In this document: positions 3-7,098 of the stretch, in pieces | Numbering within the stretch: position 1 is the first letter of the stretch | Layout of the letters: each line of letters begins with the position of its first letter | Program-made: the position numbers and the translations under genes | Assembly (NCBI GenBank): GCA_900315125.1 | Contig: OMXT01000069.1 | Coordinates: 1-44,837 of the forward strand | Direction of reading: 5' to 3' | Length of the DNA stretch: 44,837 nt | Source: an uncultured Eubacteriales bacterium | GTDB lineage: Bacteria > Bacillota > Clostridia > Peptostreptococcales > Anaerovoracaceae | The notes under the pieces: model-generated | Database searches by the model: none | The model's input: the letters and a program-made list of their open reading frames with translations, nothing else | Told to the model about the DNA's origin: nothing

Positions 3-110
3 GAAATCCTCTATGCTAATCCCTATGCAGGAAGATACCTACCGAGGATTGTCAACAAAAAACTCCCTAACAACTTGACACTATCCGATGCTTCCACACG
101 GTTGACATAG
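3..110 (+). other. Possible 3' end of an unrecognised reading frame
   Basis: An open frame runs in from the window edge and stops at TAG 108-110, giving 35 residues that begin EILYANPYAGRYLP. The composition looks protein-like, but I do not recognise it, and 35 codons can stay open by chance. Its last codons overlap the -35 box of the riboswitch promoter. It could be the tail of an upstream gene or a degenerate remnant. Confidence 0.25.
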
Positions 111-130
111 TCTGGCCCTGTTGATATAAT
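102..130 (+). promoter_or_regulatory. Sigma-A promoter of the corrinoid uptake operon
   Basis: TTGACA at 102-107 and TATAAT at 125-130 are both perfect consensus hexamers with a 17-base spacer. The expected transcription start near 137 lies about 20 bases before the riboswitch. Such a strong promoter fits an operon controlled mainly after initiation by a ligand-binding leader. Confidence 0.85.
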
Positions 131-154
131 AACTCTATATAAGAAGATTTCAGT

Positions 155-350
155 CCATACAGTGCCTCTGCGGCTGAGCCGCAGGGATAATAGGGAATCA
201 GGTGCGAGTCCTGAACGATCCGGTCACTGTAATCAGGGAGTGATCCTGCAGGGATCCCATTGGCATGTCACATGTTTCGGGCGGAAATATCGGGCATGCT
301 GAGAAGGGGCAGGGGAGCGCAGATCTGTAAGTCAGGAAACCTGCTGATGG
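155..350 (+). promoter_or_regulatory. Cobalamin riboswitch
   Basis: The conserved parts of the cobalamin aptamer appear in order: a GTGCC-type 5' segment near 162, a GC-rich P2-like hairpin (ctgcggctgagccgcag, 168-184), the core TAGGGAAnnnGGTGnnAnnCC at 191-212, CACTGTAATC at 225-234, and the B12 box GTCAGGAAACCTGC at 331-344. Riboswitches of this class switch off B12 synthesis or transport genes when a cobalamin is bound. The next four genes encode an ABC importer of the BtuFCD type, which agrees. Confidence 0.93.
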
Positions 351-438
351 ATGATTGGCAATGCTTCTGGTGAGAGCAGCAGCCAGTCAGGATTGTTACC
401 GGTCTGCCGACAGGAATCGGGATACCGGTCTATTATGG

Positions 439-561: not shown

Positions 562-3177
562 ATGAACAAGTCAGGAAAAAAGAAACTTCTGATTCTTTCC
601 CTAGTGGTGATGGTGGCATTTGCGATGATGCCGGTTTCATCTTTTGCAACAGAGGCGGTTAGTACGGCTGACCAGCCTGCGGCAGAGCAGCAGGCAGCTC
701 AGGATGAAGCAGAAGCCAAGGCAAAGGAGCAGCAGGCAGAGGAAGAAAAGGCAAAGGAGCAGCAGGCGGCGGAAGAAGCTGCGAAGCAGAAGGCTGCAGC
801 GGAAGAACAGGCACGCCAGGAAGCTGCAAAGCAGGCTGGAGCGGAATCAGAGAACGAGCAGTCATCCGGCGCAGCGAAGGATCCTTCGAAGGAGAATGAT
901 AATGCAGCTGCGGGTGCAGATGATACTGCGGATTACTGGAATTATGAGAATAAGGAAACAAAAACTGTAGACAATTCTGTCTCTATACCTGACGGCAGCT
1001 ATGTTCCGGATTCCTTCAGTTCGTCAAGGCTGAAGGAGGAGTCCAGCCATATTAAGATCACCTGCGACAAAGTAGAAGTCAAGGGAGGGAAGGCATTCGC
1101 CACCGTCACTTTCAGCAGTTCTACATGGACAGATCTTAAGGCAAACGGCGTTTCCGAAGATAATGCATATAAGAAGACGGATTCCGCTGCCGGAACGAGC
1201 AGTTTCACCATTCCTGTTTCTATTGGCGCGGACAATAAGATCGTTGGCTACACTACGTCGATGAAGACGTGGATCGGCTACCGAATCAATGTGCTGATCA
1301 CAGAGAACTCTAAGAAATATACCGGAAAAACCAATACAGGCGGCAATGCATCCAAAGATGATCCGAAGAACGATACTCCTTCGGGAACAAAGAAACTCAA
1401 GGCAGGAAAAACATATAAAGTAAAGGCAAAAACTGATTTCCGCATGCTGAATTTATATCCTGCAGAAGGTACGAAATACGCAATCCTTAAAGTGGCGAAG
1501 GATGGGAGCATGACAGCTACCATCACGCTCACCGGTCAGGGATATAAATATGTTTATATGGGAACGCAGAGTCAGGCGGAGAAAGCAGGAAAATCTGCCT
1601 GGAGCAAGTTCACAGAAGATAAGAAAACCGGGCTCTACTCCTATAATATAAAGGTCTCAGCCACGGATAAGTGGTTGAATATCTGCGGATATTCCAAGAA
1701 GTATTCCAAGTGGTTTGAGGCTCATAAGATCATATTCTATACCAGCGGCGCAAAGGAAGTCAGCGCCGACGCTAAAATCGACACGGGAAAAGCAGGGAAT
1801 AAGAACAGCGGGGCAACATCCGGCAAACAGACGAAATTCCAGAACAACAATAAGAAGGATAAGGTATCACATTCTAATGACGACCGGAGTGCTACGACAC
1901 ATGCGGTCAACAACAGGACAACGCTGAAGGACGGCGTGTATAAACCAGACGCGTTCAGCTGGTCCGGAGGCTCCGGAAGAATGGCTTACATCCGCTGTAA
2001 CAAGCTGACTGTAACCGGCGGCAAAGTCTATGCTACTATAGAATTCGGCAGCCCGAATTACGACTCCCTGAGAGCCAACGGCAGGGTATACAGCAAGTCC
2101 GGAGGCGGTAACTCCAAATTCGTTATTCCCGTCAGCCTGAACCATAACAATATCATTGTCGGACGTACGACAGCCATGTCGCAGCCCCACTGGATAAAAT
2201 ACAGAATCTATATCGCCAAAGCGGTAACGAAGAAACAGGCCGAGAAACTGAAGGAGCAGAAGGCGGAAGAGGCGAAGGCCAAGAAGCAGATCAGTAAGAA
2301 GGCCCCGGAAATCGCCGGTCTGAAAGCGCAGAAAGAAATAAAAGTCAAGTATGCGAAGTATTTCCGCATCTTCCAGTACAGCAAGGGGATCCAGGTGATC
2401 TCCATTGATATCAGCAAGGACACAGCACTCAGGAAGGCATATGCCGCCAACGCGGAGAAGGCAGCGAAGCAGCAGGACAAGGTAGAATACGATGAAGACG
2501 GGAAGCCGATCGCCAAATCTCAGCATGAGATCACTGAGGCCCTGTATAAAAACAGCGTGGTCAATTACCTCCTGGTGCCGAAGGGAACTGAGGTGCCCGC
2601 AGGACTTGACAAGGAATATGTTATTGTGCAGACTCCGGCCAAGAACAGTTTCGTCGGTTCCTACGGCGTACTGTCTTTCCTGGAGGATCTGGACGCACTT
2701 TCTCAGGTAAAAACGCTTGGCTTTATCAATGACAGCAAGCTGACGTCTAAAAAGGTGCTCGGCGCTCTGAAGGATGACAAGCTGATGACGGTCGGAAATT
2801 ATAAGGATCCGAATTATGCGAAGGTCGTTATGGCAAAGACCAAGTTTGCCGTACTGCCGGCTTCCGCTCTTCCAAAGAAGATCACTGCGAAAAAGGGCGT
2901 GCTGAACTCCGATGAATATGATAAGCAGGTCAAGGAGGCAAGGGAACTGAAAAAGCTTCTGGAGACAAGTGAGATGAGATTCACTGCTCTTGACATTCCA
3001 GTAGTCATCGACCGTTCTTCCAATGAAAAGGACGAACTGGCCCAGAAGGAATGGATCAAGGTCTACGGGGCTCTGTACGGCAAGTCCGCTGAAGCAGAAA
3101 AGATCTTCAGCGCTCAGGAAGCAAAGATCAACAAGCAGAAGAAAGCCGATAAGGAGTCATCAGAAGAAAGCCGCTGA
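562..3177 (+). CDS. Riboswitch-controlled secreted multidomain protein with a C-terminal half substrate-binding domain
   Basis: 871 residues; start ATG 562 follows AGGAAG. Residues 1-30 are a signal peptide (KKK, hydrophobic core, ending SSFATEA). Residues 45-100 are an E/K/A/Q coiled coil. Residues 140-249 and 452-555 are two copies of one beta-rich domain (DGSYVPDSFS versus DGVYKPDAFS; both have a KGGK/TGGK strand and a FxIPVS motif). Residues 278-397 form a different domain (LKAGKTYKV, GSMTATITLTGQGYKY, YMGTQSQAEKAG). After a short K/E/A helix at 556-590, residues 592-860 resemble the N-terminal part of the substrate-binding protein encoded next (shared DRSS, EWI, YG, FSAQ). The C-lobe is absent. 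There is no LPXTG, SLH or lipobox. Similar DGxYxPDxF domains occur, as I recall, in clostridial surface proteins near metal or tetrapyrrole importers. A corrinoid-capture role is inferred from the riboswitch and the operon. Confidence 0.8.
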   Translation: MNKSGKKKLLILSLVVMVAFAMMPVSSFATEAVSTADQPAAEQQAAQDEAEAKAKEQQAEEEKAKEQQAAEEAAKQKAAAEEQARQEAAKQAGAESENEQSSGAAKDPSKENDNAAAGADDTADYWNYENKETKTVDNSVSIPDGSYVPDSFSSSRLKEESSHIKITCDKVEVKGGKAFATVTFSSSTWTDLKANGVSEDNAYKKTDSAAGTSSFTIPVSIGADNKIVGYTTSMKTWIGYRINVLITENSKKYTGKTNTGGNASKDDPKNDTPSGTKKLKAGKTYKVKAKTDFRMLNLYPAEGTKYAILKVAKDGSMTATITLTGQGYKYVYMGTQSQAEKAGKSAWSKFTEDKKTGLYSYNIKVSATDKWLNICGYSKKYSKWFEAHKIIFYTSGAKEVSADAKIDTGKAGNKNSGATSGKQTKFQNNNKKDKVSHSNDDRSATTHAVNNRTTLKDGVYKPDAFSWSGGSGRMAYIRCNKLTVTGGKVYATIEFGSPNYDSLRANGRVYSKSGGGNSKFVIPVSLNHNNIIVGRTTAMSQPHWIKYRIYIAKAVTKKQAEKLKEQKAEEAKAKKQISKKAPEIAGLKAQKEIKVKYAKYFRIFQYSKGIQVISIDISKDTALRKAYAANAEKAAKQQDKVEYDEDGKPIAKSQHEITEALYKNSVVNYLLVPKGTEVPAGLDKEYVIVQTPAKNSFVGSYGVLSFLEDLDALSQVKTLGFINDSKLTSKKVLGALKDDKLMTVGNYKDPNYAKVVMAKTKFAVLPASALPKKITAKKGVLNSDEYDKQVKEARELKKLLETSEMRFTALDIPVVIDRSSNEKDELAQKEWIKVYGALYGKSAEAEKIFSAQEAKINKQKKADKESSEESR

Positions 3178-3202: not shown

Positions 3203-4396
3203 TTGAAAAACAGCAAAAGAAAAATCATAATCACTCTGCTGACCGCATTCTGTCTGCTGGCAGTAACGGTACTGACCGGCTGCGGCGGATCTGCCGGCAG
3301 CGGATCGGCTGCAGGAACGTCAGAGAGCAGCAGCTCTGCCCAGAGCAGTGCTCCGGATATCAAAGGGCTGACGTATAAGTCCACCATGGACCTGCAGTAT
3401 GCAAACCAGTTCGCCGTTTACAGCTATGAGGATGGCTATAAGCTGATCGATATTAAGGAAGAAGGTCAGTTCCTGGTCGTTCCGAAGGGAAAAGATGCTC
3501 CCGAAGGACTCAGCAAGGATATCACTGTGCTGAAACAGCCCCTGGACCACATCTATGTAGCAGCCACGGCATCCATGGCTTTGTTCTCATCAATGAACGG
3601 CCTTGACAATGTATCCATGACATCCCTGAAAAAGAACGGATGGTCCTTTGATTCTATAAAGAAAAAAATGGATTCCGGCGACATCGTCTATGCCGGGAAA
3701 TACAACGAACCGGATTACGAGCTTCTCCTGGACAGGAAATGTGATCTGGCGGTAGAGTCTACGATGATTTACCATACGCCGGATGTGCAGGATATGATCA
3801 GCGACCTGAAGATCCCTGTGCTCGTTGACCGCTCCAGCTATGAGACGAATCCTCTGGGAAGAACAGAGTGGATCCGGCTGTACGGCGTGCTGACCGGTCA
3901 TGAAAAAGATGCGGAATCGTTCTTCAGCGCTCAGGTGAAAAAGATCAAGAAACTTGAAGGATTCAAGAATACAGAGAAGACTGTTGCGTTCTTCTACATC
4001 TCTACCGATGGCAAGGCTGTTGTCAGGAGAAGTTCTGACTATGTCCCGACCATGATCGAGATGGCCGGCGGCCGTTACATCTTTAAGAAGCTGGATGATC
4101 CGAACGGAAGGACGTCTGTGCCAATGACGATAGAAAAGTTCTACGATACGGCTGCGGATGCAGATTATGTTGTTTACAACGGGAGCATCGACGGAACGGT
4201 CCACACCAAGGCAGACCTTCTGGCGAAGGATCCTATTATGAAAAAATTTACAGCAGTTAAAGAAGGAAGATGCTACGTGACGGGAGCATCGATGTATCAG
4301 AGAACGGATATCACCGGGGAAATGATACTGGACTTCCATAAACTGCTCACAGAAAAAGACCCGACGGATATGCAGTTCCTTTCGAAATTGGAGTAA
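3203..4396 (+). CDS. btuF: ABC transporter substrate-binding lipoprotein, probable corrinoid binder
   Basis: 397 residues; the start is TTG 3203 behind AGAGAGGAAAG. A lipoprotein signal peptide ends in the lipobox LTGC with Cys27, so the mature protein should be anchored outside the membrane. The remainder fits a class III (BtuF/FhuD/TroA-like) binding protein of two lobes joined by one long helix: N-lobe about residues 55-240, linker helix about 240-255 (FFSAQVKKIKK), C-lobe to 397. The motif VLVDRSSYE is shared with the preceding protein. It should bind a corrinoid and hand it to the permease encoded 4 bases downstream. The riboswitch supports a corrinoid rather than an iron siderophore, but the fold alone does not settle the substrate. 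Confidence 0.85.
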   Translation: MKNSKRKIIITLLTAFCLLAVTVLTGCGGSAGSGSAAGTSESSSSAQSSAPDIKGLTYKSTMDLQYANQFAVYSYEDGYKLIDIKEEGQFLVVPKGKDAPEGLSKDITVLKQPLDHIYVAATASMALFSSMNGLDNVSMTSLKKNGWSFDSIKKKMDSGDIVYAGKYNEPDYELLLDRKCDLAVESTMIYHTPDVQDMISDLKIPVLVDRSSYETNPLGRTEWIRLYGVLTGHEKDAESFFSAQVKKIKKLEGFKNTEKTVAFFYISTDGKAVVRRSSDYVPTMIEMAGGRYIFKKLDDPNGRTSVPMTIEKFYDTAADADYVVYNGSIDGTVHTKADLLAKDPIMKKFTAVKEGRCYVTGASMYQRTDITGEMILDFHKLLTEKDPTDMQFLSKLE

Positions 4397-4399
4397 TGT

Positions 4400-5461
4400 A
4401 TGGCAGCAGAAAATAATCTGATCGCAGAAAGTTATCGCAGCGAGATCATCCGGCGGCGCAGCCGCTGGTTTCTCGTTTTTCTCCTCCTTTTTCTGGGATT
4501 CTGCGTTATCACAGTGATCAACATCAATTCGGGCAACGTACATATTACGCTGAACAGGATCTTCCGCATCATTTTTACCGGACAGGGAGATTTTAAGGAA
4601 GTAAACATTATCTGGAGGATACGGCTTCCCAGGATCCTTACAGCAGCGCTCATGGGAGGAGCGCTGTCCCTTTCAGGATTCCTGCTCCAGACCTTCTTTG
4701 AGAATCCCATCGCCGGGCCTTATGTTCTGGGAATCTCCTCCGGCGCCAAGATGGTCGTCGCCATGGTGATGATCTTCAGCCTGCGTCATATGGTATCTCT
4801 GTCCAGCTATGCAATGATCGGCGCGGCATTCATTGGATCACTCGTCGCCACGGGATTCATCCTGCTGGTTTCACGAAAGATCAAGAATATGGCGGCACTG
4901 CTCGTTGCCGGCATCATGATCGGCTATATCTGTAACGCGCTCACTGATTTTATCATCAATTTTGCATCAGATACAGAAGTGGCAAATCTGCACTACTGGT
5001 CTCAGGGCAGCTTTTCTGGCATGAGCTGGAGCAATGTTTATATCTCAGCCTTTATCGTGCTGATCACATTTGCCGTGACCATGTTTTTTTCCAAGCAGAT
5101 CGGCGCTTATCAGCTGGGTGAATCCTACGCACAGAGCATCGGTGTAAACATCCGCATGTTCCGCGTCATATTGATCCTCCTCTCGAGTATCCTGTCAGCC
5201 ACGGTCACTGCCTTTGCGGGGCCCATATCCTTCGTAGGCATCGCCGTGCCTTTCCTGATAAAAGGCGCTATGGGAACATCCAAACCTCTCGTTGTGATTC
5301 CGGCAACGTTTATCGGCGGAGCAGTGTTCTGCATGTTCTGTGACCTGATCGCCCGTCTGGCCTTTGCGCCGATGGAACTGAATATAAGCACAGTAACATC
5401 GATTTTCGGCGCGCCTGTTGTCATATACATGATGATCCACAGAAGGAGGACCAGAAGATGA
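4400..5461 (+). CDS. btuC: ABC transporter permease, BtuC/FecCD family
   Basis: 353 residues, the usual length for this family. A basic N-terminus (EIIRRRSRW) precedes a first membrane helix, and about ten hydrophobic segments follow. Signature stretches are visible: GGALSLSGFLLQTFFENPIAGP and LGISSGAK near residues 90-115, and GPISFVGIAVPFLIK near 272-287, which matches the family's cytoplasmic ATPase-contact loop. It forms the translocation channel with the ATPase, whose start codon overlaps its stop. Cobalamin is the likely cargo because of the leader riboswitch. Confidence 0.88.
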   Translation: MAAENNLIAESYRSEIIRRRSRWFLVFLLLFLGFCVITVININSGNVHITLNRIFRIIFTGQGDFKEVNIIWRIRLPRILTAALMGGALSLSGFLLQTFFENPIAGPYVLGISSGAKMVVAMVMIFSLRHMVSLSSYAMIGAAFIGSLVATGFILLVSRKIKNMAALLVAGIMIGYICNALTDFIINFASDTEVANLHYWSQGSFSGMSWSNVYISAFIVLITFAVTMFFSKQIGAYQLGESYAQSIGVNIRMFRVILILLSSILSATVTAFAGPISFVGIAVPFLIKGAMGTSKPLVVIPATFIGGAVFCMFCDLIARLAFAPMELNISTVTSIFGAPVVIYMMIHRRRTRR

Positions 5462-6615
5462 GTGATATAGAAAAAAACAGGTCCACAGCTGCGGATCAGG
5501 CTTATTTTAAGATGGATAATCTGAGCGTTGGTTATAATAAACGAACGCTGATCCACGACATATGCATCGATATTAAAAAGGGCGAAATCGTTACACTGAT
5601 CGGACCAAACGGAGCAGGGAAGTCAACCATACTGAAAAGCATTACGAGACAGCTGCAGATCATCGGCGGCCGCGTGATCTTCGATATGTCTGATCTCCAT
5701 TCCATGTCCTTCCGATCCCTGTCTACCAAGATGGCGGTGGTGCTGACGGAGCGCATAAACCCGGAACTTGCCACATGCCACGATATCGTTGCTACGGGGC
5801 GGTATCCCTATACCGGGAGGCTCGGCATTCTGTCCAGGGAAGACGAGGATAAAGTAGATGCTGCCCTTGCCGCAGTCAACGCGAGGGAATTGGGGAACAA
5901 AGACTTTAATGCCATAAGTGACGGACAGCGGCAGCGTATCATGCTTGCCAGGGCCATATGCCAGGAACCGGAGGTCATCATCTTGGATGAACCGACATCT
6001 TTTCTTGATATCCATTTCAAGCTTGAACTGCTCAGCATCCTGCGCAGAATGGCAAAAGAAAACGACATTACAATCATTATGACGCTCCATGAGATCGATC
6101 TGGCTCAGAAGATTTCTGATAAGATCGTCTGCGTCAGCGGCGACCACGTCACGCGATACGGTACTCCCTCAGAAATTTTCCAGTTTGACGTGATCAAAGA
6201 ACTGTACGGCATAAACAACGGTTTTTTTGATCCCGTGTACGGGAACATCGAACTGGCTAAGCCATCAGGGAATGTTCCTGAAGTGTTCGTCATTTCTTCC
6301 GGCGGCGAAGGGATTCCTGTATTCAGGGAACTTCAGAAATCAAATACGCCTTTCGCTGCGGGTATTTTATATAAAAATGATATCGACTACCTCCTGGCCC
6401 GCCTGATGGCCTGCCGGGTGATCACAGAAGAACCCTTTCAGGATATAACGGAAGAGACGCTGAAAGAGGCTATGGACGTTATGGATGAGTGCCGTGAGGT
6501 CATATATACGGGTTATCCTCTGGGAAGGGGGAATGAGCGTATCAACGAGCTTCTGGAGACAGCGTCAAGAGAGAAAAAGCTAAAGGTCCTCATCAACGAA
6601 GAACAGAATATTTAA
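5458..6615 (+). CDS. btuD: ABC transporter ATP-binding protein with a C-terminal extension
   Basis: 385 residues; ATG 5458 overlaps the permease stop by 4 bases. Residues 20-245 are a standard FecE/BtuD-type ATPase: Walker A GPNGAGKST near residue 46, Q-loop region, signature SDGQRQR near 157, Walker B VIILDEPTSFLD near 175 and the switch histidine in TLHEID. Residues about 262-385 form an extra domain beginning NVPEVFVISSGGEGIPVFRE, with alternating strands and helices suggesting a Rossmann-like fold. Typical BtuD proteins (about 250 residues) lack it. I recall similar tails on some clostridial and archaeal importer ATPases; the function is unknown to me. This is the last gene of the operon, followed by a terminator. 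Confidence 0.87.
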   Translation: MSDIEKNRSTAADQAYFKMDNLSVGYNKRTLIHDICIDIKKGEIVTLIGPNGAGKSTILKSITRQLQIIGGRVIFDMSDLHSMSFRSLSTKMAVVLTERINPELATCHDIVATGRYPYTGRLGILSREDEDKVDAALAAVNARELGNKDFNAISDGQRQRIMLARAICQEPEVIILDEPTSFLDIHFKLELLSILRRMAKENDITIIMTLHEIDLAQKISDKIVCVSGDHVTRYGTPSEIFQFDVIKELYGINNGFFDPVYGNIELAKPSGNVPEVFVISSGGEGIPVFRELQKSNTPFAAGILYKNDIDYLLARLMACRVITEEPFQDITEETLKEAMDVMDECREVIYTGYPLGRGNERINELLETASREKKLKVLINEEQNI

Positions 6616-6787: not shown

Positions 6788-6801
6788 GAGAGGTGAGTAA
6801 G

Positions 6802-7098
6802 ATGAAGAAGTTCAGAGTTGTATCCAGAGCGAGATTTACTATATTCCTCGTAATCATATGCCTGCTGGTCTTTGGAATGTTCAGCATGGCAGCCGGCAGC
6901 AGTACCGCCAGCAGCGAGAGCAAGGTCCAGTATCACGCCGTAGAGATCCACAGCGGTGATTCACTCTGGACAATTGCAGAAGATTATAATAAGGAGAATT
7001 TGGATATACGCCAGGTTGTCGCTGACATCTGTGATGTAAATGATATCCGCGCGGATGAGATCCAGCCGGGACAGATGATACTCGTACCAGCATATTGA
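6802..7098 (+). CDS. yneA: YneA-like SOS cell-division inhibitor, LysM protein
   Basis: 98 residues from ATG 6802, which has GAGAGGTGAG 6 bases upstream; an in-frame GTG at 6793 lies inside that binding site and is less likely. Residues about 9-30 are a single membrane helix and residues about 48-96 a LysM domain (HSGDSLWTIAEDY ... IQPGQMILVPAY). In Bacillus subtilis, YneA has this size and layout, is repressed by LexA, and delays septation after DNA damage. The LexA-type operators here support the same role. The lexA and yneB genes usually next to it are not in this window. A plain LysM protein is the alternative. Confidence 0.78.
   Translation: MKKFRVVSRARFTIFLVIICLLVFGMFSMAAGSSTASSESKVQYHAVEIHSGDSLWTIAEDYNKENLDIRQVVADICDVNDIRADEIQPGQMILVPAY

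Follow-up and report, generated by a model that had tools for sequence, protein, structure and literature searches.

We found that P0001, the first protein of a predicted operon behind a cobalamin riboswitch, carries three putative NEAT-type domains followed by one lobe of a substrate-binding protein (SBP); it is encoded near the start of the stretch of DNA analysed here (the window, 44,837 nucleotides). With moderate confidence, we favour the reading that P0001 is a secreted protein of the NEAT type that captures and relays the ligand of a BtuCDF-type importer under B12-riboswitch control, that this ligand is a tetrapyrrole, most likely a corrinoid, and that the half lobe serves as a scaffold or docking adaptor. 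The host is a gut bacterium related to Hornefia, and the locus looks like a Gram-positive system that catches B12 or a related ring for the neighbouring importer. The features of the locus are as follows.

102-130, plus strand: sigma-70-type promoter, TTGACA-17-TATAAT with TG before the -10 element (consensus scan 12/12)
134-362, plus strand: cobalamin riboswitch aptamer, RF00174 (cmscan 91.9 bits, E 1.2e-21)
562-3177, plus strand: P0001, secreted multi-domain NEAT-type/half-lobe protein of 871 residues (open reading frame)
562-651, plus strand: putative signal peptide, residues ~1-30, without lipobox (by eye from the translation)
652-945, plus strand: coiled-coil-like stretch rich in Ala, Glu, Gln and Lys, residues ~31-128 (by eye)
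979-1308, plus strand: NEAT-type domain A1, residues 140-249 (same profile as A2, sub-cut-off PF05031 match, predicted fold)
1393-1752, plus strand: NEAT-type domain B, residues 278-397 (hhalign to canonical NEAT and to domain A, model and fold search)
1915-2226, plus strand: NEAT-type domain A2, residues 452-555, with the motif MSQPHWIKY (His543, Tyr547)
2299-3141, plus strand: lone N-lobe and linker helix of a class III SBP, residues 580-860 (BLASTP, model, Foldseek, profile comparison)
2485-2553, plus strand: conserved core of the half-lobe insert, residues 642-664, not in the lipoprotein (alignments)
2818-2820, plus strand: codon of Ala753, which aligns with the docking glutamate (Glu72 in BtuF, Glu173 in the lipoprotein; alignments)
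3203-4396, plus strand: P0002, complete two-lobed substrate-binding lipoprotein, PF01497 (Pfam 1.9e-33; lipobox LTGC by eye)
4400-5461, plus strand: FecCD/BtuC-type permease (PF01032, 1.8e-77; best NCBIfam model BtuC)
5458-6615, plus strand: ABC ATPase of the BtuD/FecE type with a C-terminal extension (PF00005; NCBIfam PRK09536, FecE)

The promoter lies immediately 5' of the riboswitch, and the strong riboswitch match ahead of P0001 bears out the original prediction of a B12-controlled operon. Riboswitch, binding protein, FecCD-type permease and ATPase make up the layout of a BtuCDF-type importer within one predicted operon. The permease scored 209 bits against the NCBIfam BtuC model, under its cut-off of 334, and the ATPase scored 199 bits against the corrinoid ABC ATPase model PRK09536, under its cut-off of 537, and 198 bits against FecE. 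A corrin-ring gene cluster is present in the genome of the window, so an imported corrinoid is not necessarily needed.

The C-terminal part of P0001 had been described as the N-lobe and linker helix of the neighbouring lipoprotein, ending before any C-lobe, and our comparisons confirmed this. By BLASTP, residues 582-858 match lipoprotein residues 51-250 (74.7 bits, E=2e-18, 25% identity), and a profile comparison of the two families gave a probability of 99.94% and E=2.9e-37 (as a single comparison) over 206 columns that span lipoprotein residues 46-251 only; N-lobe and helix align, and the second lobe typical of class III SBPs is absent. Chance similarity was ruled out by the profile comparison and by a control in which 1000 shuffles of residues 573-871 reached at best 26.6 bits, whereas the real sequence scored 75.5. 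A frameshift or pseudogene was also ruled out: relatives share the same end point, and a full-length binding-protein gene comes next. When the model of residues 440-871 was searched with Foldseek, class III binding proteins, and not an unrelated fold, ranked first (CeuE, E 3.0e-4; YclQ, 3.7e-4), with two matches at E up to 0.001 and V. cholerae BtuF at E 0.0054. Coverage was ~160-180 columns and the TM-score by target ~0.3-0.4, corresponding to roughly half a binding protein. Pfam detected PF01497 in two of ten half-lobe proteins (best E 0.0021).

While the core and the linker-helix motif are retained, only 23 of the 63 residues that are invariant across nine lipoproteins (P0002 and eight relatives) persist in the half lobe; the 40 residues not kept in 8/10 half lobes include those of the loops 120-125 and 185-193, although Ala120 is kept in 7/10. 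With the pocket-lining SBP loops presumed from the class III fold, most of the presumed pocket-lining residues appear to have been lost. Relative to the lipoprotein, the half lobe carries inserts, net ~48 residues within 613-670 and ~27 within 770-807, and the insert region at residues 642-674 has a mean pairwise identity of 66%.

Glu72 and Glu202 of BtuF are, we take it, the residues that dock onto BtuC. In a MAFFT alignment these two and Phe162 fall on residues invariant in 9/9 lipoproteins, while Trp66, Trp85 and Trp196 align with an invariant Tyr, a Ser and a gap, respectively. The position of Glu72 is occupied by Glu in BtuF and 9/9 lipoproteins and by Ala, Ser, Arg, Lys or Gln in 19/19 half lobes, a correspondence that rests on the MAFFT alignment and on the docking role ascribed to Glu72 and Glu202. 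When BtuF was aligned to the lipoprotein profile with HMMER, no meaningful match resulted, and a PDB sequence search with this profile returned one chain, Lmo2184, matched in its C-lobe. Canonical docking of the half lobe onto the permease is disfavoured because the docking glutamate is absent in 19/19.

The original prediction had also offered a lobe swap, in which the half lobe pairs with the lipoprotein C-lobe to make a second kind of binding protein. The N-lobe homology is clear, but all nine aligned binding proteins, and those encoded at 25/25 readable loci, have their full length, only a minority of the lipoprotein-invariant residues is kept in the half lobe, and the docking glutamate is gone; we therefore consider the swap highly improbable. 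That the half lobe is decaying, with no function left, also seems improbable. It is more variable than NEAT-A2 (mean pairwise identity 45%, against 73% over 19 NEAT-A2 sequences) and its presumed pocket residues are lost, but half-lobe matches of at least 120 bits occur in seven genera of the family, 30 columns are invariant over ten half-lobe sequences, the new insert is conserved, and the fold is predicted with high confidence.

Predicted models span residues 132-402 and 440-871 of P0001. The model of NEAT-A2 with the half lobe reached a pTM of 0.88, as compared to 0.52 for A1 with B, and the half lobe is predicted to pack firmly, as one unit, with this last NEAT domain. The two adjoin in 18/18 loci where the stretch was readable, and they stand nearly alone in L081, a 373-residue paralogue with one NEAT-A domain and a weak half-lobe match. 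NEAT-A2 might thus replace the missing C-lobe and enclose the ligand together with the half lobe, like a two-lobed binding protein; the confident joint model, the constant pairing and the higher conservation of NEAT-A2 and the insert than of the half lobe overall are consistent with such a clamp. However, most presumed N-lobe pocket residues are not kept, and we regard it as rather unlikely.

Profiles and models indicate that all three beta domains are of a divergent NEAT type, with the fold of the Isd haem chaperones. In hhalign comparisons with 19 canonical NEAT domains from four genomes, the NEAT-A family gave E 5.4e-9 (probability 95.9%) and the NEAT-B family E 1.7e-11 (probability 97.3%). 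A Foldseek search with the A1+B model returned NEAT proteins as all of its top seven matches (E 1.1e-4 to 0.039), led by IsdH-N2N3 (E 1.1e-4) and IsdB (2.3e-4), and the predicted fold of A1 matches IsdH, IsdB, IsdX1 and Shp. At the level of single sequences, A1 matches PF05031 at 1069-1236 (E 2.3e-4) with 22.5 bits, under the Pfam cut-off of 32.8. The A2 and B domains of the window alone gave no Pfam NEAT match at E up to 0.1 and are not among the 7/19 NEAT-A and 10/17 NEAT-B members with weak matches at that level. Because these scores are below the cut-off, we term the domains NEAT-type and do not file them as members of PF05031. Pfam on P0001 itself yielded nothing at E up to 1, and NCBIfam matches were compositional and far under cut-off. 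In PDB sequence searches, wider domain profiles gave weak NEAT matches to 3sik (E 0.0011, first half of the domain only) and 4h8p (E 0.014, whole domain), and the half-lobe profile and the two first domain profiles gave nothing relevant. The profile search suggested with the original prediction brought out a NEAT-type identity that had not been foreseen. Of the two copies and one distinct domain originally described, A1 and A2 indeed share one profile, whereas B is a remote homologue of both (hhalign probability 84%, E=7.7e-6).

According to the excerpt of PMC7815599, the NEAT domains whose function is known have haem or haemoglobin as their ligand; chlorophyll uptake is proposed there for some, so other rings have already been considered. 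The first Tyr of a YXXXY motif on the last NEAT strand ligates the haem iron, and clostridial NEAT domains without this motif are described (PMC4143258, excerpt), so the absence of the Tyr is compatible with haem binding. With the register anchored on the second Tyr, at a spot that hhalign gaps, none of 19 diverse NEAT-A sequences has a Tyr four residues before the last-strand Tyr (14 His, 3 Thr, 2 Val), as compared to YXXXY in 14/19 canonical domains. A1 has Thr instead of His at this position, and HWxxY is found in 19/19 NEAT-A2 sequences.

The capture role proposed for the beta domains is plausible; since they appear to be NEAT-type, binding of haem only is a real risk. More generally, their ligand may be haem or a different tetrapyrrole that is not a corrin (sirohydrochlorin, cobalt-sirohydrochlorin or porphyrin), and the operon would then import a ring that feeds or competes with corrin synthesis, hence the B12 control. 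Haem chaperones are the top structural matches, and corrin-ring genes are present in the genome of the window. The half lobe occurs in 10/17 genomes of the genus, and a CbiK chelatase gene is found in 9/10 of these versus 0/7 without it (Fisher p 0.0004, kinship ignored); by eye, several of them begin with a signal-like or lipobox-like sequence, and some have NEAT-B-like stretches. However, a search for CbiK alone gave no match in the genome of the window, the riboswitch is cobalamin-specific, and the haem-ligand Tyr is missing from all 19 of the diverse NEAT-A sequences. We consider a non-corrin ring somewhat unlikely, and a corrinoid remains our preferred ligand.

The genomic survey for half lobes beside cobalamin riboswitches, also suggested beforehand, was positive at 23/26 distinct loci, where a riboswitch lies upstream on the same strand. 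Fifteen loci belong to the family (the window, L023-L031, L034, L075, L076, L077 and L079), and the other 11 (L035-L037, L039, L043-L048 and L050) are on MAG contigs labelled Clostridiales, Bacillota/Firmicutes, Eubacterium or Peptostreptococcaceae; contigs taken as second copies because of their equal length (L033, L038, L040, L041, L042, L049, L051 and L080), a second half-lobe gene in the L026 genome (L081) and a contig cut before the half-lobe gene (L078) were left out. The riboswitch is directly ahead (<0.3 kb) at four loci (the window, L023, L024 and L034) and 1.3-5.1 kb upstream at the other 19. At 18 of these 19, same-strand ORFs occupy 83-95% of the gap, and no ORF was found in that of L044. 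The riboswitch of L030 is weak (49 bits), and none was found at L028 (also as L038), at L035 and L037, where the contig stops at the gene or close to it, or on the stretch of L081. A full-length binding-protein gene is next at 25/26 loci, the 25 being all those where the next gene was readable. In other clostridial families, gene clusters with a B12 riboswitch encode the NEAT-A type in small proteins next to binding proteins; among eight NEAT-A loci outside the family, a binding protein is adjacent or fused in 7/8 and a riboswitch present in 6/8.

For the ligand, its binding, the hand-off and the docking place, we infer the following scheme. Low cellular cobalamin would permit expression, as expected from the riboswitch class, and the NEAT-type domains of secreted P0001 would bind a tetrapyrrole, most likely a corrinoid, and pass it to the complete lipoprotein P0002 and on to the permease and ATPase. 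In this scheme the half lobe arose by duplication of the N-lobe of a lipoprotein of this kind, losing most presumed pocket residues and the docking Glu and gaining a conserved insert. Firmly packed with the last NEAT domain, it would most likely position this domain against the lipoprotein so that the ligand can be handed over. Docking to P0002 and corrinoid delivery by P0001 are possible. Only tentatively do we extend this scheme to an "Isd for vitamin B12" of the Clostridia: NEAT domains may have become corrinoid-binding domains that carry a His (MSxxHxxxY) at the site of the haem Tyr, and in Anaerovoracaceae the last NEAT domain and the lone N-lobe may form a hybrid two-lobed clamp or a loading dock.

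Extracellular corrinoid capture by Gram-positive gut bacteria is poorly known. If the NEAT-type domains bind corrinoid, a haem family gains a second natural tetrapyrrole, and the His-for-Tyr change would be a testable basis of corrinoid binding. The half lobe would exemplify how the binding protein of a transporter can be reduced to a single lobe and put to new use, as scaffold or loading dock. Should the ligand be haem or sirohydrochlorin instead, a B12 riboswitch would govern the uptake of a different ring, and this too is unexpected.

Our literature search found no B12-linked NEAT protein and, in agreement with the original prediction, no described Gram-positive corrinoid system built like P0001. 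A close arrangement in our survey is that of L067 (Clostridia), where the same NEAT type is fused ahead of the same binding-protein family, beside permease-like and ATPase-like genes (by eye); in contrast to the half-lobe proteins, L067 has both lobes, and no riboswitch was found on its 15-kb stretch. BtuF and other class III SBPs (PF01497) share with the half lobe the fold and the linker-helix motif DR...E.......EW...Y, whereas the half lobe has one lobe only, has lost the docking Glu and most presumed pocket residues, and carries the net ~48-residue insert. The Bacteroides surface corrinoid lipoproteins BtuG and BtuH are likewise extracellular accessory proteins of gut-bacterial B12 import. 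BtuG is a seven-bladed beta-propeller lipoprotein that works with an outer-membrane receptor (PMC6143338, excerpt), while P0001 comes from a Gram-positive and its models match NEAT and SBP folds and not a propeller. The Isd relay of Staphylococcus aureus (IsdB/H-IsdA-IsdC to the IsdE lipoprotein and IsdF permease; in part after PMC7815599) has in common with the P0001 locus extracellular NEAT-type domains beside a binding lipoprotein and permease, and a layout of capture, relay and import. Isd is under iron control, however, whereas the P0001 locus has a cobalamin riboswitch; the C-terminal end of P0001 shows no LPXTG-like sortase motif by eye, its haem-tyrosine position is not Tyr, and its NEAT array is fused to one lobe of a binding protein.

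The operon encodes a secreted multi-domain protein (P0001), a complete substrate-binding lipoprotein and an importer, arranged in the window as follows.

102-130: promoter, perfect consensus
134-362: cobalamin riboswitch, 91.9 bits
562-3177: gene for P0001, 871 residues
3203-4396: gene for the substrate-binding lipoprotein, next after P0001 (PF01497, 1.9e-33)
4400-5461: FecCD-type permease, downstream of the lipoprotein gene
5458-6615: ABC ATPase, downstream of the permease

The top NCBIfam model was the B12 permease BtuC for the permease and a corrinoid ATPase for the ATPase, both scoring well under the cut-offs. Between riboswitch and start codon, a short inverted repeat at 458-482, seen by eye (CTGCAGGC ... 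GCCTGCAG), flanks a T-run and is possibly part of the riboswitch expression platform. A small LysM protein (PF01476) is encoded 3' of the importer genes at 6793-7098; ORFs with starts that resemble it by eye also follow the importer in the half-lobe loci L023, L024, and L028. The window genome belongs to the family Anaerovoracaceae, and we infer that its genus is the one containing Hornefia butyriciproducens and Aminicella lysinilytica.

The original prediction that P0001 ends in a half lobe, resembling the N-lobe and linker helix of the neighbouring lipoprotein, was borne out. Residues 582-858 matched the lipoprotein at E=2e-18 in BLASTP, the real sequence scoring 75.5 bits against a top score of 26.6 bits among 1000 shuffles. 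The family-to-family comparison gave a probability of 99.94% (E=2.9e-37), with the match ending at lipoprotein residue 251, past the linker helix. Structure prediction agreed: the AlphaFold model of residues 440-871 (19 sequences; mean pLDDT 89.9, pTM 0.88) placed class III binding proteins at the top of the Foldseek list, over ~160-180 columns and with two at E <=0.001, while BtuF was matched at E 0.0054 for Vibrio cholerae and 0.03 or worse for E. coli.

The beta domains in front of the half lobe are divergent NEAT-type domains. Two copies of one domain had been predicted, and 140-249 (A1) and 452-555 (A2) indeed share one common profile (NEAT-A); the supposedly distinct third domain, 278-397 (NEAT-B), turned out to be a remote match to this profile (hhalign probability 84%, E=7.7e-6). 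The NEAT-type relation emerged from family comparison with 19 canonical NEAT domains (four Bacillota genomes, 17/19 domains from two of them), in which one comparison each gave E=5.4e-9 for NEAT-A and E=1.7e-11 for NEAT-B. For the model of residues 132-402 (pLDDT 85.8), the top seven Foldseek matches were IsdH-N2N3, IsdB, IsdX1 with haem, IsdX1, IsdB-NEAT2, Shp, and haem-bound IsdB-N2, at E values from 1.1e-4 to 0.039. We use the label "divergent" because Pfam NEAT matches were weak or absent: at E <=0.1 they were found in 7/19 NEAT-A members (best 5e-7) and 10/17 NEAT-B members (best 1.2e-5), window A2 and B searched singly gave none at this threshold, and A1, at 22.5 bits, fell short of the 32.8-bit cut-off.

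In canonical NEAT domains, according to PMC4143258 and PMC7815599, the haem iron is ligated by the first Tyr of YXXXY, a motif present in 14/19 of the canonical domains used here. Across 19 diverse NEAT-A domains, the aligned position holds His 14 times, Thr three times (including window A1), Val twice, and Tyr not once, with the register fixed on the second tyrosine, at a spot where hhalign puts a gap. NEAT-A2 domains adjoining half lobes carry HWxxY in 19/19 cases. The haem tyrosine is not retained in NEAT-A, but this is only suggestive because a clostridial NEAT group is reported in PMC4143258 to have no YXXXY at all.

Among 63 aligned positions that are invariant across nine lipoproteins, 23 are retained in at least eight of 10 half lobes; these are core residues and the linker-region Asp209, Arg210, Glu214, Glu222, Trp223, and Tyr227. 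Below this level are the positions of loop 120-125 (Ala120 in 7/10, the rest in fewer) and loop 185-193, as well as Lys166, Tyr167, and Glu173. MAFFT aligns the BtuC-docking residues of E. coli BtuF, Glu72 and Glu202, with glutamates invariant in 9/9 lipoproteins, and the B12-pocket residue Trp66 with a Tyr invariant in the nine. The Glu72 place is occupied by Ala, Ser, Arg, Lys or Gln in 19 half lobes. Given the lost loop positions and these substitutions, the half lobe resembles neither a usual half-site nor a usual dock for the permease. Between positions 613 and 670 it has gained a net 48 residues, and mean identity is 66% in part of this insert (642-674), 45% over the whole half lobe, and 73% in NEAT-A2.

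Three observations suggest that NEAT-A2 and the half lobe form the functional unit, namely a pTM of 0.88 for this pair as compared to 0.52 for A1 with B, their adjacency in 18/18 named loci covering that stretch, and a minimal 373-aa paralogue (L081:6598-7719, minus strand) that has one NEAT-A and matches the half lobe weakly (41 and 13 bits). This paralogue adjoins a CbiD gene in the genome that also holds locus L026, and a riboswitch search of its stretch found none. The pair could be either a hybrid clamp or a loading dock.

The half lobe is conserved and, in the genome samples, taxonomically restricted. It is present in 10/17 genomes of the genus and, among the matches listed in the family search, reaches at least 120 bits in 24/296 genomes from seven genera, one of the 24 (G271) being 8% contaminated; a weaker candidate in genome G222 would add an eighth genus. 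The other matching genomes, again among the matches listed, have a binding protein, as judged from ~400-residue open frames and match range. Matches at E <=1e-18 occurred in 25 genomes of an order sample of 393 (20 half lobe, five binding protein only) and in four of a class sample of 391 (two and two), all in the same family. In the survey of loci, which took in 19 named ones, a cobalamin riboswitch lies upstream of the half-lobe gene on the same strand in 23/26 distinct loci: directly in front in four, across a gap that is 83-95% same-strand ORF in 18, and across a gap free of detected ORFs in L044. A full-length binding-protein gene follows immediately in 25/26 loci, the remaining one (L037) stopping at the contig end. 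In L039, the 5.1-kb gap between riboswitch and half-lobe gene is taken up by an ORF of 1595 residues on the same strand, whose start is signal-like. L076 (contig C124 of genome G288) holds the half-lobe locus twice, in mirror image with paired riboswitches on a single short contig, which is perhaps an assembly artefact.

NEAT-A was found in 10/196 genomes of a class sample, seven of them outside the family, and all eight places listed for these seven genomes were taken in (L067-L074). NEAT-A is a small separate protein directly adjoining a binding-protein gene in 6/8 of these loci. In another clostridial family it is N-terminal to a complete two-lobed binding protein in one 500-aa fusion (L067:6264-7766, minus strand), and in L073 it lies, without a binding protein, next to tetrapyrrole-type genes identified by eye. 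Riboswitches were found on 6/8 loci, with none on L067 and L073. NEAT-B is a separate small protein in five clusters (L068, L069, L071, L072, and L074). NEAT-B and NEAT-A also occur once each within single proteins (L113:10899-12071, minus; L114:16838-17998, plus; L025:10833-12014, plus), which lie near genes named by eye as haem/tetrapyrrole-synthesis and ABC-export-like.

We favour a corrinoid as the ligand, based on the riboswitch, the importer type and the neighbouring corrin genes. On contig C86, the window genome has a corrin-ring cluster in which the CbiD, CbiL, CbiF, CbiH, CbiJ, CbiE/CbiT, CbiA, and CbiP types pass at least one cut-off and the CbiG and CbiC types fall short. This cluster, together with the distribution and architecture of the chelatase CbiK, therefore makes a non-corrin tetrapyrrole the strongest rival. 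Within the genus, CbiK is present in 9/10 half-lobe genomes versus 0/7 others (Fisher p 0.0004, kinship ignored), although the single half-lobe genome without a match is the window's own; CbiD is present in 10/10 versus 2/7 (p 0.003). Several CbiK-domain proteins begin, by eye, with a signal or lipobox-like stretch; some of them contain NEAT-B-like or fn3 stretches, and they are apparently extracellular cobalt chelatases.

L027:8800-10761, minus strand: NEAT-B-like stretch
L029:9351-11234, minus strand: fn3 stretch
L110:5171-7336, plus strand: NEAT-B-like and fn3 stretches
L112:5889-7532, plus strand: NEAT-B-like stretch
L113:4152-5438, minus strand: CbiK domain and start
L114:4975-6225, plus strand: CbiK domain and start

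In L027 and L029, the CbiK-protein gene sits between riboswitch and half-lobe gene.

Among the open-licence papers listed, titles and abstract starts yielded no paper on NEAT domains with cobalamin or vitamin B12, a corrinoid hemophore, or Gram-positive corrinoid surface proteins, in keeping with the original statement that no described Gram-positive corrinoid system of this build was known. One of the papers pairing the terms NEAT domain and cobalamin/vitamin B12, PMC7299338, concerns, in its covered part, ECF and Isd haem uptake. In PMC4143258 and PMC7815599, "cobal" had no match, and the sole "B12", in the latter, is a reference label.

For the favoured corrinoid, the simplest reading is a relay in which the NEAT domains would capture the ligand, the last of them, held by the half lobe, would present it, and the lipoprotein would accept it before import by the permease. 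Such a relay would resemble the Isd system, but for a B12-type ligand.
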